A stretch of DNA of 64,000 nt from Pseudonocardiaceae bacterium YIM PH 21723 (GTDB taxonomy: Bacteria > Actinomycetota > Actinomycetes > Mycobacteriales > Pseudonocardiaceae), in the NCBI GenBank assembly GCA_003600225.1, contig QZFT01000023.1, positions 124,001 through 188,000 on the forward strand, in the 5' to 3' direction. The translations under genes and the position numbers were made by a program. Below, one piece after another: positions 5,196 through 61,213 of this stretch. Each line of letters starts with the position of its first letter. Within the stretch, counting starts at the first letter, position 1. A model generated the notes under the pieces. The model searched no databases. It worked only from the letters and a program-made list of their open reading frames with translations, and was not told where the DNA came from.

Positions 5196-5248
5196 CCGAA
5201 GTTGGCGATGTCCGGGAATGCACTTCTCCCGAACATCGCCAACTTCGG
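5196..5248. repeat. palindromic hairpin repeat, copy 1
   Basis: A 53-bp element with 22-bp arms starting CCGAAGTTGGCGATGTCCGG and one mismatch, in terminator position just after aceE. It is a slightly diverged member of the family seen at 14710, 30881, 36802 and 54682. It probably terminates aceE. Confidence 0.8.
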
Positions 5249-12772: not shown

Positions 12773-14701
12773 GTGAAGTTCCGCATTCTGGGTCCGGTGG
12801 AAATCATCCGTGACGGCACTCCACTGCCGATTGGTGGACCACGGAACAGGGCCGTACTGGCCGCTCTCGCCACCGATGTCGGCCGCGCCGTGAACACCGA
12901 AAAACTGGCCGGCGCGGTGTGGGGAGAACAGCCCCCGGCGACCGTTCGCGCACAGATCCAGATCTGCATTTCGGCACTGAGGCGTCTCGAACTTCCGATC
13001 ACCTCCAGCTATTCCGGATATACCCTCGACGTTGATCCCTTTTCCGTCGACGCGACGCAATTCCACGCCCTCATCGCACAGGCCAGGGCCCTCTCGAAGG
13101 CCGACGGCTACCGGCAGGAGGCGGCCGACCTGCTGCGCTCGGCCGTCGACCTGTGGCGCGGCCCCGCGCTGGACGGCGTTCCCGGGCTGGCGGCGGAGGC
13201 CGCCCGGCTGGACGAGGCGCGGATCGCGGCCACCGGCGACCTGATGGACATGGAACTCCAGTTCGGCAGGCACAGCCACCTGATCAGCGAGCTCACCACG
13301 CTGGCGCGGGAGTATCCGCTCCAGGAGCGGTTCCAGGCCCAGTTGATGCTCGCGCTGTACCGGTCCTCCCGGCAGGCCGAGGCGCTCCGCGTCTACCGGG
13401 ACCTGCGGGAGATGATGCACCGCGATCTCGGCCTGGAACCCGGCCTGGAACTCCAGTCCCTGGAGCGGCGGATGCTGATGCGCGACCCGGCGCTGGCCTA
13501 CTCCGAGACGGTGCAGGAACAGCCGCTGATCATCGAGCAGGCGAACGCGCCGCGGCGCGAGCAGATCGTCCGGCTGCCGCCGGAGACCGGGGTGTTCACC
13601 GGGCGCAGCCGGGAGATCGAGCGGATCACCGAGCAGCTGCTCGGCACCGGATCGCCGGTCGTGCTGACCGGACCGGTGGGCATCGGCAAGAGCGCCCTCG
13701 CCGTGCAGACCGCCTACGGACTGAGCGGCCACTTCCCGGACGGCGTGCTGTACCTGGACCTGCGCGCGGCCGACCCCCAGGAGGCGGTCTCCCAGCTGCT
13801 CGGCCAACTCGGCGAGGACCCGGCGGGCGACCGGGACCGGTACGCGGAGCGGGTGGCCACCGGCCGGATGCTGCTGGTCTTCGACGGGGTCACCGACGAG
13901 GAACAGATCCGCGGGCTGCTGCCACGCACCATGTCCGCCGCTGTGCTGATCACCAGCCGGTCCCGGCTCACCGCGCTGGAGGGCTCCTGGCTCCTGGAGG
14001 TCGACCCGCTCGACGAGGACGCGGGCATGGACCTGCTGGGCAACATCATCGGCCACCATCGGCTGGCCGCCGAGCCGGAAGCCGCGCGCGCCGTGGTCGG
14101 GCAGTGCGAACGACTGCCGTTCGCCATCCGCATCGCGGGCGCCCGGCTACTGGCCAAACCGCACTGGTCGCTGACCCGGTTCGCCGGGAGGCTGGAGCCG
14201 GAGGCGACCCGGCTCGACGAGCTGGCCCACGCCGACCTGCGGATGCGCTCGGTGCTGGACCTCGAGTACACCGCGCTGGACCCGATCCTGCGCTGGGCGC
14301 TGCGCAGGCTGAGCCTGCCCCGGGTGCCGTACCTGCCGAGCTGGCTGGCCGCGGCGCTGCTGGACCTGAGCCTGCCGCAGACCGAGAACGTGCTGGAGAG
14401 CCTCCTGGACGCCCGGTTGCTGACCGCCGTGCCCGCGCCGCTCGGCGACGACATCCGCTACCGGCTGCCCAGCCTGGTGTGGCTGTTCGCCCGGGAACGC
14501 GCCCGCATCGAGGACAGCCCGATGGACACCGACGCCGCCCAGGACCGGGCGCGGTTGGCCGGGCTGCGGCTGATGGACGAACTGGGCTCCGAGTCCCCGT
14601 CCCTGGACCAGCTGGACCCGGCCCAGCGCGCCGCCGCCCTGGCCGACCCGGCCGGCTGGCTCACCGCCCACCAGGACATCCTCGGCTCCCTCACCTGCTG
14701 A
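12773..14701 (+). CDS. SARP-family regulator with NB-ARC ATPase domain (SARP1)
   Basis: A 642-residue protein of the AfsR/DnrI type. The N-terminal OmpR-like winged helix (MKFRILGPVEI; LAGAVWGEQPPATVRAQIQICIS) is followed by a bacterial transcriptional activation domain (to about residue 245). An NB-ARC-like ATPase comes next, with the P-loop GPVGIGKSA near residue 300 and ITSRSR. The TPR tail of full AfsR proteins is absent. The start is GTG 12773, which matches the usual MKFRILG beginning; an upstream ATG at 12728 adds unrelated residues. SARPs activate antibiotic clusters, and it lies at the edge of the NRPS region. Confidence 0.88.
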   Translation: MKFRILGPVEIIRDGTPLPIGGPRNRAVLAALATDVGRAVNTEKLAGAVWGEQPPATVRAQIQICISALRRLELPITSSYSGYTLDVDPFSVDATQFHALIAQARALSKADGYRQEAADLLRSAVDLWRGPALDGVPGLAAEAARLDEARIAATGDLMDMELQFGRHSHLISELTTLAREYPLQERFQAQLMLALYRSSRQAEALRVYRDLREMMHRDLGLEPGLELQSLERRMLMRDPALAYSETVQEQPLIIEQANAPRREQIVRLPPETGVFTGRSREIERITEQLLGTGSPVVLTGPVGIGKSALAVQTAYGLSGHFPDGVLYLDLRAADPQEAVSQLLGQLGEDPAGDRDRYAERVATGRMLLVFDGVTDEEQIRGLLPRTMSAAVLITSRSRLTALEGSWLLEVDPLDEDAGMDLLGNIIGHHRLAAEPEAARAVVGQCERLPFAIRIAGARLLAKPHWSLTRFAGRLEPEATRLDELAHADLRMRSVLDLEYTALDPILRWALRRLSLPRVPYLPSWLAAALLDLSLPQTENVLESLLDARLLTAVPAPLGDDIRYRLPSLVWLFARERARIEDSPMDTDAAQDRARLAGLRLMDELGSESPSLDQLDPAQRAAALADPAGWLTAHQDILGSLTC

Positions 14702-14709
14702 CCCACGGT

Positions 14710-14764
14710 CCCGAAGTTGACGATGTTCGGGCACGCCCTTCGCCCGAACATCGTCAACTTCGGG
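14710..14764. repeat. palindromic hairpin repeat, copy 2
   Basis: Perfect 23-bp arms (CCCGAAGTTGACGATGTTCG...) around a 9-nt loop, between convergent SARP1 and the ABC permease. It probably works as a bidirectional terminator and is the most regular copy of the family. Confidence 0.85.
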
Positions 14765-14772
14765 TAGAGGTA

Positions 14773-17307
14773 CTACTCCCGGCTGCCGATGGCGTCGACC
14801 GGCCGGTCCCGCAGCACGTGCTTGGCCGGCAGGATCACCGCCAGCCAGCCCAGGCACACGGTGACCAGCACGATCGCCGCGTAACCCAGCGGGGGCCAGT
14901 ACGGGAACGAGGTCTCCGTGCGCCCCATGCTGTACGGCACCAGCGTGGCGATGGCGATCCCGGTACCGAGGGCGATCGCGGTGACGATCAGCATCACCGA
15001 CTCCCACCGCGCCATCCGCAGCACCTGGTCCCGGGTGGCGCCCACCAGCCGCAGCAGGGCGAACTCCCGCCGCCGCTCGGTGGTGGTCATCGCCAACGTG
15101 TTGATCATGGCGATGCCGGTGTAGAGCACGATCACGAAGGTCACCAGGAACGCGCCCCACTGGTTGGCCCGCTGGTCCTCGTCCCTGGCCACCAGCGCGG
15201 CCTGCGGGTCCACAACGGACAGTCCGGGATGCCTGGATCCCAGCGCCGCCAACGCATCGGCGGAGCCGCCCTTCACCAGCACCTGGTCCACCAGCCCGGA
15301 GGTGGTGTGCCCACGCAGCATGTCCAGCGGCACGGTGACATCGCCATAGCCGAGGCCCCGGCTGTAGATCGCCACCACCTTCACCGTCTTCGCGGTGCCG
15401 TCCGCGAGCCGGATCGGCATGTCACTGCCCACGTTCCAGCCCAGCGCGGTGGCCTCGGTCTGGGACAACGCGATGCTGTCCCCGCGTAGATCGGCCAGGT
15501 TCCCCGCGCGCAGCCCCAGGTCCACGGTGGACCCGAGATCGGTGGCGTCCACCGCCTGCGCGGGCACTGCCGACATGTCCGGCTCCGCCGTGGTGCCGGT
15601 CAGGATCTTGGTGCGCACCACCGCGGTGGCGGACTGGACGCCGGGCACCGCACGCACCTCGCGCACCACGTCCGGGGACAGCTGCCCGGTGATCACGTGA
15701 TCGGCCCGGCTGCCCTCGGCGGCCTGGTCGGCCGCGGCCTGCAGCGCCGACGCGGGCAGGAAGATCTCGGTGCAGGCGAATCCGACGGCCAGCATCATCG
15801 GGATCACCGCGGAGCTCACCCGCCGGGTGTTGGACCGGCTGTTCGCCACCGCCAGATACCCGGAGCTGCCGGAGAACATCCGCACCAGCGCACCCAGCAA
15901 CCCGCTGGCGATCCGCACGAGAACCGGAGCCAGCAACGCCAGCGTGAGCAGCAATGAGAACAACACGCCGAGCGAGACGCCCGCCGCACCGTCTCCGGTC
16001 ACCCCGGTGGAGATGCCCATGACGACGACGCTGATCGCCGCGAAGGCGAGCCCCAGCACCAGCCTTGGCCAGCGCAGGATCCGCCGGTCGGCACTCGCCT
16101 CCGCAAGGGCCTCCGTCGGCGCCGTCTTGCCGGCCCGCCGCCCCGCCACGAAGGTGGCCAGCAGGGCGACCAGCACGGTGGAGCACACCGCGACCAGCAC
16201 CGGCAGCCAGCCGACCCGCAGCTGCAGGCTGTCCGGGATCATGCCGTGATCGACGAACAGCGAACGCAACAGCGAGGCCAGGCCGATGCCCAGCAGCGAG
16301 CCGATCAACGCGCCGGGCAACGAGATCAGCAACGCCTCGGCGGCGATCATCCGGCGTACCTGTTTCGGGGTCGCGCCGACCGCGCGCAGCAGGGCGATCT
16401 CCCGGTGCCGCTGCTGCACCGACAGCACGAAGGTGCTCGCCACGACGAACAACACGACCGCCAGGCCGACGCCGCCGAACGAGCCGGACAGCGAGACCAG
16501 GTAGAACGCGCCGTTGCCGCCGTCCAGAAACTCGATCCGGCCGCGCTGTTCCCCGGTCAGCGCGACGAAGTCCTTCTCCCCCAACGAACCCTGAATGCTC
16601 GACGCCAGCGCCTCGGCATCGGTTCCCGGCCGGGCCAGTACCCCGATGGCGTCGACGGTGCCGGACCGCCCGGCCAGCCCGAGCGCGGCCTGCTGGCCGA
16701 AGAACACGGCGGACTGCTTGACCAGCGGCCGTTCGCTGTTCGCGATGCCGGAGACGGTCACCGTGCGCGGAATCCCCCGCACGGACACCGTGATCCGGTC
16801 CCCGACGTGCGCGTTCGCCTTACCGGCCAGGGCGTTGTCCAGCACGACCTCGTCGGACCGGACCGGTTCGTGCCCGCTGCCCAGCGTGAACGGGGCCAGT
16901 TTCGCCGAATCCCAGCCGTGGCCCCAGGAGGCGGGCCCGTCCAGGGGCTTCCCGTCGACGATCACGGTGGCCGGGAAGGACACGTCCGCGACGGCCTCCC
17001 GGACCCCGGGAACCGCGCGGACCTTGTCCAGCACCCCGGAATCGAGGCGGACCCGCTCGGTCAGCGGCGTGGACTCGCCGGTCCCCCCGTCCGGGTTCTC
17101 CGGATCGGCGGGCGCGTCGAAGCTCTGCTTACCCCCGACGACCACGTCGGCCGCCGCGTACCGCTCCGGCGAGGAGCTCGCCCGGACGCCGGATTCGAGG
17201 AGGATGCCGGCCGCCGAGACCACGGTGGCGGCCAGGAACAACGCCACGAACGCGCCGAAGAATCCGCCCTTGCGGGCCTTCAAGGTCTTGAGCGCCAGCC
17301 TGATCAC
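14773..17307 (-). CDS. FtsX-like ABC transporter permease
   Basis: An 844-residue membrane protein with two FtsX-type modules. A membrane helix near residue 20 is followed by a large extracytoplasmic domain, three helices around VLFVVASTFVLSVQQRHREIALLRAVGATPKQV, a second extracytoplasmic domain, and a final module with TLAMTTTERRREFALLRLVGAT. This is the MacB/LolCDE type, which moves peptides or lipids rather than small solutes. The start is GTG 17307, overlapping the ATPase stop by 4 bp. Its place between two SARP genes suggests export of, or protection from, the cluster product (inference). Confidence 0.88.
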   Translation of the reverse strand: MIRLALKTLKARKGGFFGAFVALFLAATVVSAAGILLESGVRASSSPERYAAADVVVGGKQSFDAPADPENPDGGTGESTPLTERVRLDSGVLDKVRAVPGVREAVADVSFPATVIVDGKPLDGPASWGHGWDSAKLAPFTLGSGHEPVRSDEVVLDNALAGKANAHVGDRITVSVRGIPRTVTVSGIANSERPLVKQSAVFFGQQAALGLAGRSGTVDAIGVLARPGTDAEALASSIQGSLGEKDFVALTGEQRGRIEFLDGGNGAFYLVSLSGSFGGVGLAVVLFVVASTFVLSVQQRHREIALLRAVGATPKQVRRMIAAEALLISLPGALIGSLLGIGLASLLRSLFVDHGMIPDSLQLRVGWLPVLVAVCSTVLVALLATFVAGRRAGKTAPTEALAEASADRRILRWPRLVLGLAFAAISVVVMGISTGVTGDGAAGVSLGVLFSLLLTLALLAPVLVRIASGLLGALVRMFSGSSGYLAVANSRSNTRRVSSAVIPMMLAVGFACTEIFLPASALQAAADQAAEGSRADHVITGQLSPDVVREVRAVPGVQSATAVVRTKILTGTTAEPDMSAVPAQAVDATDLGSTVDLGLRAGNLADLRGDSIALSQTEATALGWNVGSDMPIRLADGTAKTVKVVAIYSRGLGYGDVTVPLDMLRGHTTSGLVDQVLVKGGSADALAALGSRHPGLSVVDPQAALVARDEDQRANQWGAFLVTFVIVLYTGIAMINTLAMTTTERRREFALLRLVGATRDQVLRMARWESVMLIVTAIALGTGIAIATLVPYSMGRTETSFPYWPPLGYAAIVLVTVCLGWLAVILPAKHVLRDRPVDAIGSRE

Positions 17308-28100: not shown

Positions 28101-31100
28101 TGCCCGGTGAGCGCCACCTCCTCGGCGAAGACCGCCCGCACCGCGTCCAGCCAGCTGCCAGTGAACTCGGGCGACCGGAACGGAACCACGTTGAGGTACA
28201 TGCCGAACGTGCGATCGCCGTCGGCGGTCTCCGGCCGGCCGTTGGAGATGAGTCCGGTGAGGAATCGCGGCTGGTCGGTGGCCAGGGACAGCGCCCGCAG
28301 GTGCGCGGTGAGCAGCACGCTCTTGAACGAGACGCCGGCCAGCGTGGCCAGTTCCCTGAGCTGCTCCTCCAGGTGGCTGAACGGAACATGCAGGTCATAC
28401 ATCGGATCCGGACCCGGGTCCGGGTCCGCCCACACCTCGGGCAGCCGCAGTTTCGCCGCATCCTCCACTCTGGACGCCCAGAACTCGCGGTCCACTGTGG
28501 AGTTCAGTGCCCGCTGTTCGAGGGCGATGAAGTCGGCGTACCGGGTGGCGGCCACCTCGGCCTCCGGCTGCGGGGTGGCGTCCCGGTAGGAGCGGTACCA
28601 GGCCAGCAGCTCGGTGATCATCGAGTGGTGGCTCCAGCCATCGAGGATGGCGTGGCACTCGACCAGGGTGAACCGCCAGCACTCGTCCTCGGCGTACACC
28701 CGGAGTCGCCAGGTTCCGGGCACGGTCAGGTCGAACAGCTCGTCCCGTTCGGCCCGCATGTGGTCGTCGACCAGGCGTTCACAGTCCGCTGTGGACAGTC
28801 CACGCAGGTCGACCGGGCGGACCGGGATGTCCGCGTGCGGGTAGACCAGCTGCAGGGGCCTGCTGAACCGGGACAGCTCGAACGCGGTGCGCAGCACCTC
28901 GTGCCGTTCGACGATGGTGTCCACCGCGCGGCGCAATGCGGGCAGGTCCAGCGCCTCGCCGTCGCGAACCGTGTAGGTGGTGGCGTTGTGATAGGGCCGG
29001 AGTTCCTGGTCGGCCAGCATCTCGTAGATCATCCCGGCTTGACCCTCAGCCAGGGGATAGGCGTCGACGACCTCGTCGGGCAGCGCCGCCCGGTCGGCCG
29101 GATCGAGCAGCGCGAAGGGCGCCACCCGTTGCTCTGCCGAGCCGGTGGCCTCCGGAAACACGGCGGCCAGGTCGGCGATGGTCTGGCTGCGGAACAGGTC
29201 CTGTACGGCGACGGGGTAGCCGAGTTCCTTCATCCGGCCGACGACCCGCACGGCGCGGATGGAGTCGCCGCCGAGCTCGAAGAAGTTGTCCGTGCCGCCG
29301 ACCCGCTCCAGGCCCAGTTCCTCGGCCCACACCTTGGCGAGTTCGCGCTCCACATCGGACGCGGGCGCGATGTACTCCCGTCCGGTGTCCAATCGGGACA
29401 CGTCGGGCTTGGGGAGCGCCCGCCGGTTGACCTTGCCGTTGGTGGTCAGCGGCAGCTCTTCTAGGTGCACGAACACCGCCGGGATCATGTATCCGGGCAG
29501 CCGGCCGGCCAGGTGGGTGCGCAGCCCGGCGACTTCGGCGGTGCCGGACAGCACCACGTAGCCCACCAGGCGCTTGTCTCCCGGTGCGAATTCGTGGGCC
29601 ACCACCACGGCGGCGTCGACCTGGTCGTGCGTGGTGAGTGCGGCCTCCACCTCACCGGTCTCGATGCGGAAGCCGCGGATCTTGACCTGGTCGTCGACCC
29701 GGCCGAGGAACTCGATCTCGCCGTCGGGCAGCAGCCGGGCCTTGTCGCCGGTGCGGTACAGCCGGTCCCCGCTGCGGCCGCTGAACGGGTCCGGCAGGAA
29801 CCGCTCGGCGGTGAGCTCGGGCCGGTTCAGGTAGCCGTGGGCCAGGCCCGCGCCACCGACGTAGAGCTCGCCGGGCACGCCGATCGGCGCCGGGTTCAAC
29901 GCACTGTCCACGACGTACAGTTCGAGGTCGCGCAGTGGCGCGCCGATCGGGCTGCGGGCGGCGCCGCCGTGCCGGGCGACGTCGACGGGCAGCACCTCGC
30001 GGTAGGTGACGTGCACGGTGGTCTCGGTGATGCCGTACATGTTGATCATCGCCGGGGCCTTGGCGCCGAGCCGGGCGAACCACGGTCCGAGCGCGGACAC
30101 GTCGAGGGCCTCGCCGCCGAACACCACGGCACGCAGCGCGAAGTCCGGGGTGTCCTCGCCGAGCGCGCCGAGCAGGTTGGTGAACGCGCTCGGTGTCTGG
30201 TTGAGGATGGTGACCCGCTCGTCGACCAGGGTGTTCAGGAAGTCCTTGGGCGATCGGGAGATCTCGAACGGCACGACGACGAGGCGGGCGCCGTAGGTGA
30301 GGGCGCCCCAGATCTCCCAGACGGAGAAGTCGAAGGCGTAAGAGTGGAAGAAGGTCCACACGTCGTCGGCGCCGAACCGGAAGTCCGGGTCGGTGCTGGT
30401 CAGCAGCCGGACCACGTTGCGGTGGCTGACCATCACGCCCTTGGGCTTGCCGGTGGAGCCGGAGGTGTAGATGACGTAGGCCAGGTCGTCCAGCCCGGCG
30501 CGGATCCCGGGGTCCACAGTGGACCGCTGCGCGGGAACGTCCCCTTCGGTGAGGACCAGAGGGATCCCGGAGTCCTCGATCATGAAGCCGAGGCGGTCGT
30601 CCGGCTGGTCCGGATCGAGGGGCAGGTAGCCGCCGCCGGCTTTGAGCACGGCCAGCAGGGCGATGACCAGTTCGGCGCACCGGCGCATCCGGACACCGAC
30701 CAGTACGCCGGGTCCCACTCCCTGCGCGATCAGCTCGTGTGCCAGGTGATTGGCGCGTTCATCCAGGTCCCGGTAGCTGAGCTCGGTGTCCCCGAAGGTG
30801 ACCGCGACCTTGTCCGGGCGCTCCTGGGCGGCATTGCGCACAAGTCGATCGAGGGTGAGTCGGGCCGGCGACTGAAGGTCCCGAAGTTGACGATGTTCGG
30901 GCTCGTTCCTCGCGCGAACATCGTCAACTTCGGAGCCAGTGTGGAAGGGGAGCGCCCCAAGCGGAGTGTCCGGGTGCTCGGTGACGTGCTCGAACAGACC
31001 GATGAGGTGGTGGGCGATCCGGTCCACTGTGGATTCGTCGAACAGTGCGGTGGCGTAGTCGAGGTGACCCGCCAGGGAGCCGTCGGCGAGTTGCTTGATG

Positions 31101-32314: not shown

Positions 32315-37247
<4,933 letters not shown>

Positions 37248-39458: not shown

Positions 39459-39786
39459 TGATGCGCTTCCCTTCCGTAGCCGCCGGCTCCCCCTTCGACC
39501 GGCCTCCATCAGCTTGTGGACCGGGGTTATCGGTGGCGGTATGGCGGCGGTATCGGGGCGCTATTGGTGGGCCATGTCTTTCAGCTGGGCTTGAATGAGA
39601 CTGGTTGGGTCTGGTGGGGATTCGAAGGATGGCTTTGGAGGAGGGAGGGGGACGGGTCTTTCCTTTTGGGCTGTCTCGTTGTGGGTTTTTTCGGGGTTTC
39701 ACGTGACTGTGGGGCGCCGGTTTTACACCCATGTGGGTTATCTTGCGGATTCGATATCCTCATTGCATGCGAGTAATATCGAAGAC
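39459..39786. other. 328-bp spacer with a relic of the large repeat arm
   Basis: Spacer between divergent sbnA and the HNH gene. Positions 39607-39670 resemble one arm of the large inverted repeat at 58645-59161 (shared GGATGGCTTTGGAG and GGTCTTTCCT blocks). The last ~70 bp are AT-richer and should contain the HNH promoter; a promoter for the sbnA-NRPS operon must also lie here. Confidence 0.55.
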
Positions 39787-54681: not shown

Positions 54682-54729
54682 CCGAAGTTGACGATGTTCG
54701 GGCTCTTTCCCGAACATCGTCAACTTCGG
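54682..54729. repeat. palindromic hairpin repeat, copy 5
   Basis: Perfect 21-bp arms (CCGAAGTTGACGATGTTCGG plus G) with a 6-nt loop between convergent fabF and the GH6 gene. It probably terminates both. Confidence 0.85.
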
Positions 54730-54736
54730 AACGCCT

Positions 54737-58638: not shown

Positions 58639-58644
58639 GTCCGT

Positions 58645-59161
58645 TGCGTCTGGGTTGTTGGGGGAAGATGGCTTTGGAGGGGGAGACGGGTGGGGTTGCC
58701 GGTCTTTCCTGCCGGCGTGTTGGGTGGGGGCACGCCGGTCTGACTTTTCGGGCTTGATCACCTTCGGTGCGGACTTGCGCGGGGCTGGTGGGGTTGTTGG
58801 GGCAGGTGGGGTTCTTGTGGGTGAACTGGGTGGGATTGTTCCTGGTTAAAGACCTATTTAGGGCCCTAAATAGGTCTTTAACCAGGAACAATCACCGTGT
58901 CCACAGTGGACTCAACACCGGTCTTCGGATCTCGCGCCACCCGGCGCGGGCATGATCGCCACAGACCGTGAACACCGCCCCCGCGGAGCCTCGCCAACCA
59001 GACCCAATCGCGTTCCTCGGCCACTCCGAGTCACCCCGACCCGACAATGCCCACCCGACCGCCAGTCCGGCGTGCCCCCACCCAACATGCAGGCAGGAAA
59101 GACGCCCCCCGCCGCCCATCTCCCCCTCCAAAGCCATCTTTCGACAACCACCAGACCCAAC
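58645..59161. repeat. large imperfect inverted repeat element
   Basis: Two ~100-bp arms, 58645-58745 and 59060-59161, are reverse complements over most of their length (shared GATGGCTTTGGAGGGGGAGA, GTCTTTCCTGCC and TGTTGGGTGGGGGCACGCCGG blocks). They enclose a less similar interior centred on a perfect 60-bp palindrome. No transposase lies inside; short frames in it are by-products. Together with a relic arm at 39607-39670 it suggests a small mobile or MITE-like family. Covers the 586-bp gap before the ceramidase. Confidence 0.75.
58834..58893. repeat. perfect 60-bp palindrome
   Basis: 27-bp arms beginning GATTGTTCCTGGTTAAAGAC around GGGCCC with no mismatch or loop. It is far more AT-rich than the surrounding DNA. 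It sits at the centre of the large inverted repeat. Confidence 0.97.
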
Positions 59162-59224
59162 CCCCACCCGCCAAAAACATGAAGCTTCTTCACAAACCCA
59201 CCGGCTGGCTATAGCCTGGCAGTC

Positions 59225-61213
59225 ATGTGGTCCCCGACACATCGCCTGAAGGCCCTGTTCGCCGCCGGTCTCGTCACCGCGGCAGTGCTGGTCGTGCCCG
59301 TCGCGCAGGCGAACGGGCAGAGTTACCTGGTCGGCCGCGGCACCGCCGACATCACCGGTGAGGTCGCCGAGGACGGCATGCTCGGCTACGCCCAGCCCAC
59401 GCAGACCACGCACGGCATCCACCTCCGGCAACGCGCCCGATCGTTCGTCATCGCCGAACCGAACGGCGGCAAGCGGGTGGCGATGACCGTGACCGACACC
59501 GGCATGATGCTGTCCGGCGTCCGGGACGTGGTGCTGAATCGGCTACGGCAGAAGTTCGGCGACGCGTACACCGACGCCAACGTGCTGCTGTCCGCCACGC
59601 ACACCCATGCGGCGCCCGGCGGGTTCAGCGACTACACGCTCTACAACGTCACCACACTGGGCTTCCACCGCAAGACCTTCGACGCCCTGGTGGACGGCAT
59701 CGTGGATTCGATCAGCGCCGCCGACGCCGACCTGAAGCCCGGTGGCGTCACGGTCAACCGGGGCACCCTGACCGATGCCGGCGTGAACCGGTCCCGGCGG
59801 GCCTTCGACCGCAACCCGGCGCAGGACAAGGCCGTCTTCCCGGACGCCATCGACCCGGTCAGCACCCTGCTGCGCCTGGATCACGACGGCAGGCCGGTGG
59901 GCGCACTCAACTGGTTCGCCACCCACGGAACCAGCCTGACCAGCGACAACCTGCTGATCAGCGGGGACAACAAGGGATACGCCGCCTGGGCGTGGGAACA
60001 GCAGCAACCCGGTTTCGTGGCCGGATTCGCGCAGACCAACCCCGGTGACATCTCGCCGAACCTGGCACTCAAGCCGGGTACCGGGCCCACCGAGGACCAG
60101 GTGCGCAACACCGAGATCATCGGCAGGCGCCAGCTGGACTCCGCGCAGTCGCTGGCCTCGGGCGGGAATCCGCTGTCCGGCGGCATCGACAGCCGGATCT
60201 CCTATGTGGACATCAGCAAGACCACTGTGGACGGAAAGTTCACCCCGGACGGGAAGCAGCACCGGACCTGCAACGCCGCCATGGGCGCCAGCTTCGCGGC
60301 GGGGTCCACTGAGGACGGACCGGGCCCGGCGATCTTCCACGAGGGCGCGGGCAGCAATCCGCTGATCGAGCAGATCTCCAAGCTCGCCTACACCGCGTCG
60401 CCGGAGTTGAAGGCCTGCCAGGCCCCGAAGGACATCCTGCTGCCGGTGGGCGACATGGGCTGGGTGGCGACCACGCTGCCGGTGCAGCTGCTGCGCATCG
60501 GCGAGCTGTACATCGCGGGCATCCCCCAGGAGCCGACCATCGTGGCCGGCCTGCGGCTGCGCCGGACCATCGCTGCGGAGCTGGGTGTGCCGATGGAGAA
60601 CGTGCTGGTCAACGGCTACGCCAACGACTACGCGGGCTACCTGACCACGCCGGAGGAGTACCAGCAGCAGGACTACGAGGGCGGCCACACCATGTACGGC
60701 CAGTGGGAACTGCCCGCCTACCAGCAGGAATTCGCCCGTATCGCGGCCGACATGCACGCCGGGCGGCCCAGTGCCTCCCCACAGGCCAGGCCCCAGCACG
60801 GTGATCCCCTGGCGCTGCAGCCCGGCGTGGTGATGGACGCCCCGCCGCTGGGCCAGAACTTCGGCGATGTGCTGCTCGCCCCCAAGGCCGAGTACCGCAC
60901 GGGCGAGACGGTGCGGGCGCAGTTCGCGGGCGCGCATCCGAACAACGATCTGCACCGTGGCGGCGGCTACCTGGAGGTACAGCGCCGCGAGGGCGACGGC
61001 TGGCGGACCGTGGCCAAGGACGGAGACTGGTCGACCACCTTCCGCTGGGCGCGGCTGGGCATCGCGGCGTCCACCGTCACCATCGACTGGACCATCCCAC
61101 CGGGGACGCAGTCCGGCGATTACCGGATCGTCTACCACGGCGACGCGAAGCCGCTGCTGAACGATCGGGCCTTCCCGATCACCGGCAGCACCGGGCCGTT
61201 CCGCCTCCGCTGA
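59225..61213 (+). CDS. secreted neutral ceramidase
   Basis: A 662-residue enzyme of the neutral/alkaline ceramidase family, which hydrolyses the amide bond of ceramides. A signal peptide (about 1-31, ends PVAQANG) is followed by YLVGRGTADITGE, the zinc ligands in LLSATHTHAAPGG, NWFATHGTSL, and the nucleophile Ser in NPGDISPN. A C-terminal beta domain follows. The ATG is at 59225. It is exported and probably acts on foreign sphingolipids; no neighbouring sphingolipid genes are seen. Confidence 0.9.
   Translation: MWSPTHRLKALFAAGLVTAAVLVVPVAQANGQSYLVGRGTADITGEVAEDGMLGYAQPTQTTHGIHLRQRARSFVIAEPNGGKRVAMTVTDTGMMLSGVRDVVLNRLRQKFGDAYTDANVLLSATHTHAAPGGFSDYTLYNVTTLGFHRKTFDALVDGIVDSISAADADLKPGGVTVNRGTLTDAGVNRSRRAFDRNPAQDKAVFPDAIDPVSTLLRLDHDGRPVGALNWFATHGTSLTSDNLLISGDNKGYAAWAWEQQQPGFVAGFAQTNPGDISPNLALKPGTGPTEDQVRNTEIIGRRQLDSAQSLASGGNPLSGGIDSRISYVDISKTTVDGKFTPDGKQHRTCNAAMGASFAAGSTEDGPGPAIFHEGAGSNPLIEQISKLAYTASPELKACQAPKDILLPVGDMGWVATTLPVQLLRIGELYIAGIPQEPTIVAGLRLRRTIAAELGVPMENVLVNGYANDYAGYLTTPEEYQQQDYEGGHTMYGQWELPAYQQEFARIAADMHAGRPSASPQARPQHGDPLALQPGVVMDAPPLGQNFGDVLLAPKAEYRTGETVRAQFAGAHPNNDLHRGGGYLEVQRREGDGWRTVAKDGDWSTTFRWARLGIAASTVTIDWTIPPGTQSGDYRIVYHGDAKPLLNDRAFPITGSTGPFRLR

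Follow-up and report, generated by a model that had tools for sequence, protein, structure and literature searches.

The window analysed here is a stretch of 64,000 bp from contig C1 (C1:124001-188000, so that a window position is the C1 position minus 124000) of a 7.6-Mb draft genome in 111 contigs, which is 97.7% complete and the sole genome of its genus in our comparison set. Between a gene whose product gave no Pfam match and a ceramidase gene lies one complete copy of a composite repeat (Table 1), the arms of which were matched by nhmmer at C1:182641-182758 (+) and C1:183054-183166 (-). An inverted repeat had originally been predicted at 58645-59161, and it is indeed present there, with the extent given by the HMM being slightly larger. 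Within the copy, a repeat search pairs the halves 58834-58863 and 58864-58893 over 30+30 bp with 100% complementarity and no loop, and pairs the outer segments 58653-58742 and 59063-59152 over 90 nt at 83%. The exact palindrome, its AT-rich composition (40% GC, versus 68% in sampled DNA of the same genome) and the imperfect inverted arms on either side were all correctly described in the original prediction, as was the absence of a protein of its own from what is a non-coding, many-copy element with inverted ends. A run of 30 consecutive pairs cannot have originated by chance. The description of such a sequence as hard to maintain was nonetheless overstated, as strong counter-selection affects only palindromes well above 100 bp. 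When folded as RNA, the window element reaches -329 kcal/mol (z -15.5), and an Rfam scan of it returned only matches to microRNA hairpins, far below threshold, as any long hairpin yields.

Table 1. Features of the composite repeat copy and its flanking genes (window coordinates)
Feature	Position	Strand	Basis or remark
Upstream gene, 448 aa	57292..58638	+	Stop codon 3 bp before element
Complete copy of composite repeat	58641..59166	.	526 bp between arm ends by HMM; arm matches and genome search
Left arm, outer end GGGTTGGGTCTGG-type, inward-reading	58641..58758	+	Arm HMM, E 1.6e-25
Conserved TGTGGGTGAAC flank of hairpin cassette ('V' side)	58816..58826	+	V motif in 29/56 copies; coordinates from sequence
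Perfect loop-less 60-bp palindrome, the hairpin cassette, GTTAAAGAC (M1) type	58834..58893	.	
13-bp palindrome GTCCACAGTGGAC (motif B), joint of the two variable cassettes	58899..58911	.	Coordinates from sequence
Second variable cassette, W type, with CATGATCGCCAC at 58951-58962	58912..59053	+	
Right arm, inverted	59054..59166	-	Arm HMM, E 9.6e-29
Downstream gene, neutral/alkaline ceramidase (PF04734, PF17048)	59225..61213	+	Start 59 bp past element

Far from being unique, or an artefact without related copies, the element found dozens of copies of itself when used as a query against its own genome. Specifically, a 16-base arm motif, with one mismatch allowed, has 330 matches in the genome (181 and 149), compared with 0 for a reversed-pattern control. 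Given that this motif recovered 27 of 33 HMM arms in two contigs, we estimate about 400 arms, and perhaps 200 elements, for this genome. In the 1.81 Mb of it that we read, partly chosen for copies, we counted 180 arms and 74 complete copies, the latter ranging from 337 to 636 bp (median 487). Because these 74 include copies found first by their likeness to the window copy or its relatives, module frequencies among them are biased towards M1. Arm density is uneven: C24 has 5 arms over 253 kb and C1 has 13 over 354 kb, as compared to 20 over 160 kb in C16, and contigs C1 and C24 differ in element density from C16, C13 and C22; the long contigs may just be the repeat-poor ones. The window also holds a single decayed arm of the family at 39600-39679 (HMM E 1e-6), which lacks a partner arm close by. 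A second hairpin repeat of about 55 bp (CCCGAAGTTGACGATGTTCGGGCTCG...CGAACATCGTCAACTTCGG) occurs five times in the window (5197-5247, 14710-14763, 30877-30935, 36801-36855 and 54682-54730) and gives 77 half-matches in 1.81 Mb of the genome.

With respect to internal anatomy, the complete copies (n = 74) follow a common plan in which an inward-reading arm that starts with GGGTTGGGTCTGG is followed by a cassette, the sequence GTCCACWGTGGAC, a second cassette and the inverted arm. The arms are about 110 bp long, and the two cassettes that they enclose are variable. By comparison, the 13-bp joint palindrome GTCCACWGTGGAC is found in 70 of the 74 copies when variants are allowed (35 exact). At least eight hairpin types were distinguished, namely the window's own type M1 (GTTGTTCCTGGTTAAAGAC), M2 (TTTTCCGTCTTCAAGACCG), M3 (GTTGTTCCATCTTCAAGATGG), M4 (CCTGAAGGACGCC), M5 (CCTGAACGTGGCTTTCAGG), M6 (ACTTGTCGTG), M7 (GATCAATGGCGGATTTGG) and M8 (GCAGTAAGGGTGCCCC). 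Copies with an M4 left cassette are 85-87% alike in that cassette and carry M1, M5, M6 or other right cassettes beyond the 13-mer, and these right cassettes are only 28-32% alike. Copies e29 and e42 are alike end to end save for the hairpin core, where both M3 arms replace both M1 arms. The cassettes are shown by these comparisons to come from several hairpin families and to be freely combined. The original prediction overlooked that the palindrome belongs to a set of at least eight hairpin cassettes that can replace one another, and that what stays constant inside the element is the 13-bp GTCCACAGTGGAC. The palindrome's perfection is in fact atypical of the family, since a loop-less palindrome of more than 50 bp occurs in 3 of the 74 copies, that of the window being the longest.

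The outer arms and the inner hairpins differ in how closely their halves are matched. Left and right arms are 72.2% identical within a copy and 72.1% between copies (permutation p 0.34), and the excess mutual information between arm columns, 0.19 bits for columns 1 bp apart, is down to 0.001 at distances of more than 50 bp. As within-copy identity equals between-copy identity and linkage is gone by about 50 bp, the arms behave as a recombining pool in which left-right pairing is shown not to be maintained. The within- versus between-copy comparison gives no sign of selection for RNA pairing of the outer arms, and RNAalifold finds no consensus structure in them (-2.7 kcal/mol, with the most strongly linked columns unpaired in that fold). 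The halves of the inner hairpin, on the other hand, match at 0.767 within a copy versus 0.711 between copies (29 positions, p 5e-5). At the inner end, the two hairpin halves of the window copy both read CTATTTAGGG. Three other copies share its CTATYTAGGG on the TGTGGGTGAAC-facing side, one of them with a single change, and on the 13-mer-facing side these same three read GTTTTCGAGG, GTTTTCGATG or ATTTCCGAGG. By parsimony over these four copies, the perfect palindrome probably owes its origin to template switching, in which one hairpin half is overwritten by the complement of the other (PMC8794818, PMC7202029).

The joint 13-mer also occurs apart from the elements. In 0.90 Mb, GTCCACNGTGGAC was found 17 times outside them, 13 times with A or T at its centre, compared with a mean of 0.16 for palindromes built from shuffled half-sites, and in called genes all 13 copies of the joint 13-mer lie in one frame (STVD). 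The present genome has 234 occurrences of GTCCACNGTGGAC; other genomes of the family have 660, 359, 220, 199, 149 and 127, one genome of another family has 246, low-count genomes have 0-14, and the reversed control gives 0-2. The sequence is strongly over-represented in many Pseudonocardiales genomes (noted in the present genome, G000, and in its relatives G001, G006, G007, G014, G015, G018 and G028) and lies mostly within genes in three relatives. In this it resembles HIP1 of cyanobacteria, which has been linked to methyltransferases (PMC4390886). One rather doubtful reading of these counts is that GTCCACWGTGGAC could be the genome-wide site of a DNA-binding, methylating or recombination system in Pseudonocardiales, with the elements as its vehicles or recombination junctions. 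If the motif is functional, a group of antibiotic producers would seem to have a chromosome-wide DNA motif system that is so far undescribed.

The element itself is confined to a much narrower range. It had no match in 389 other genomes of the family, and likewise none in a search of 40 relatives. Single copies of the M1 core pattern were found in 3 of 385 other genomes, the M6 cassette was found in 0 of 199 and the M5 cassette in 1 of 40. When a like element was sought in 400 kb of the relative G016, high-copy repeats were confined to one stretch and were not dispersed. Clustered repeats (GGCCGCAATGGAGTCCGGCCGCGGGGGCCGGAGTGAG) in that genome, at G016:C18 (L245) 163-263 and 13227-15830, are CRISPR-array-like in appearance.

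In terms of position, with genes called by a simple home-made codon-usage caller, 0 copies lie inside genes, and convergent gene pairs flank 28 of 71 copies versus 236 of 1360 other gaps (P 2e-5). Among the gene 3' ends that face an element, 57 of 90 lie within 22 bp of the arm, which leaves no room for the gene's own terminator, and 24 lie at 45-95 bp, often, as judged by eye, behind a terminator-like hairpin; for facing gene starts the median distance is 156 bp. The search of relatives for empty sites that the original prediction had proposed was made at the conserved convergent PduO-DUF2550 junction, which is 475 bp long here and holds one copy. The corresponding gap is 58 bp in G016, which has the most similar PduO (83% identity), and 54, 49, 32, 32, 31, 21 and 1 bp in further relatives, with up to 82 bp among the short ones; in some relatives it is longer, from 150 to over 1000 bp. 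No arms were present in 80 named loci. Streptoalloteichus, Actinosynnema and Kibdelosporangium are among the named genomes whose PduO is closest to that of the present genome, which points to a Pseudonocardiaceae-like family. The short junctions support insertion in the present lineage, which we infer at this one locus from a comparison between genera, all of these relatives belonging to other genera and some having longer gaps. In G006 (L125), a 54-bp hairpin that is almost perfect but unrelated in sequence (AAACGATGAACGGCGCTTTGTGCAC...) occupies the same gap, and this suggests that different hairpins fill 3' junctions in the family.

As for how the family spread, movement in trans is the natural guess for a dispersed element without a protein, and this had been part of the original prediction. 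The lack of a protein, the many copies, the inverted ends and the short gap in some relatives where a copy sits here all fit an element moved in trans; an autonomous copy, a RAYT and a target-site duplication were not found. In particular, flanking k-mers are not shared above the level in shuffles for k of 5-9 (k of 4 alone gives p 0.026), and neither a transposase between arms nor a gene-bearing arm pair, as in an autonomous transposon with the same ends, occurs in the 1.81 Mb read of the 7.6 Mb. Transposition is thus a putative route. These results bear on whether the family is an ordinary MITE, derived by deletion from a DNA transposon, with terminal inverted repeats of about 110 bp that a DDE transposase would recognise in trans and with an interior diversity that would reflect later decay and nested insertion. 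Such an origin would account for the inverted ends, the high copy number, the absence of coding sequence, the intergenic placement and the apparent insertion at the PduO-DUF2550 junction. Beyond the missing duplication signal and the lack of a transposase between arms in the DNA read, however, the interior consists of recombined cassettes and not of a single decayed sequence, and the arms are unusually long and are unlinked beyond about 50 bp, which leaves us regarding this origin as unlikely. Mobilisation of a REP/BIME system by a RAYT (Y1 transposase), in enterobacterial style, would likewise explain why palindromic units are combined as mosaics near stop codons. We reject it as extremely improbable, since the genome, at its stated completeness, has no match to PF01797 in a search that was positive in five control genomes, and since the element is far larger than REPs.

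A different view is that the element is kept by selection as a bidirectional transcription end, its hairpin ending or protecting the transcripts on both flanks. The original prediction had named a very strong terminator among its options, and such activity is hinted at by the position of the copies at gene 3' ends. The role would fit the closeness of the arms to those ends, the enrichment between convergent genes, the co-variation of the hairpin halves and the very stable RNA fold. Against it, the outer arms lack both within-copy co-variation and a consensus RNA structure, and intrinsic terminators are matched in the element about as often as chance would give (2 versus 0.9). Moreover, hairpin pairing could be maintained by template switching alone (PMC8794818), and placement at 3' ends would also follow from the avoidance of coding and promoter DNA. 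We accordingly consider selection for this role a possible but somewhat unlikely explanation of the family. An assembly error at a repeat is a highly improbable source of the perfect palindrome: several contigs of this draft do end in copies, but the window copy has unique genes on either side and lies mid-contig, perfect palindromes of 54 bp occur in two other copies, and many more are near-perfect.

Taken together, these observations lead us to favor, with reasonable but not full confidence, a lineage-specific composite repeat that underwent non-autonomous spread and then reshuffling, with a template-switched hairpin in the window copy. The family would have spread in the present lineage either by copying through recombination or by means of a transposase that was lost or acts in trans, and copies may have persisted where they do least harm, right behind stop codons or terminators. 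Gene conversion over short tracts, together with template switching, would then have reshuffled the arms and cassettes. The window hairpin itself was probably made perfect in one template-switch event, which wrote a copy of the opposite half over the half next to GTCCACAGTGGAC. The element may also, as a by-product, terminate or insulate the transcripts that reach it from either side.

With perhaps 200 copies whose parts are shuffled in one genome, the family allows gene conversion, template switching and module exchange to be read from a single assembly. The decay of linkage within about 50 bp, together with unlinked outer arms versus matched inner hairpins, also provides a natural test of how the perfection of palindromes is kept up. 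Our search of the open literature, which was incomplete, turned up no account of the motif or of the element; known systems resemble the latter in part. MITEs such as Correia elements share its inverted ends, gene-free interior and dispersal, and terminal inverted repeats are present here as arms at both ends; those arms are, however, about 110 bp long, the interior is shuffled, and neither a target-site duplication nor, in the 1.81 Mb read, a partner transposon was found. The overwriting of one half to give a perfect palindrome and the block-wise compensatory change recall quasipalindrome correction by template-switch mutation (PMC8794818, PMC7202029), although the event is deduced here by comparing paralogous copies of one genome and not from mutants. 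The BIME/REP mosaics of enterobacteria also combine palindromic units close behind stop codons, but the units here are far larger and the genome lacks a RAYT. BOX elements of Streptococcus have the layout boxA-boxBn-boxC, with boxE and boxF ends of 115 and 133 nt also present in S. suis (PMC3049150). The likeness to BOX is one of layout: both are composite, with constant ends, variable inner modules (as seen here across 74 copies) and a high copy number in one lineage, and both are intergenic, enriched between convergent genes, devoid of a protein of their own and stable in predicted fold (PMC3049150). Here, in contrast, the two ends are inverted copies of each other, at least eight hairpin families take the place of tandem boxB units in the inner slots, and the joint between those slots is a 13-bp palindrome. 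Among composite interspersed repeats, the element is best regarded as a new, lineage-specific variant, with BOX and BIME as its closest kinds.
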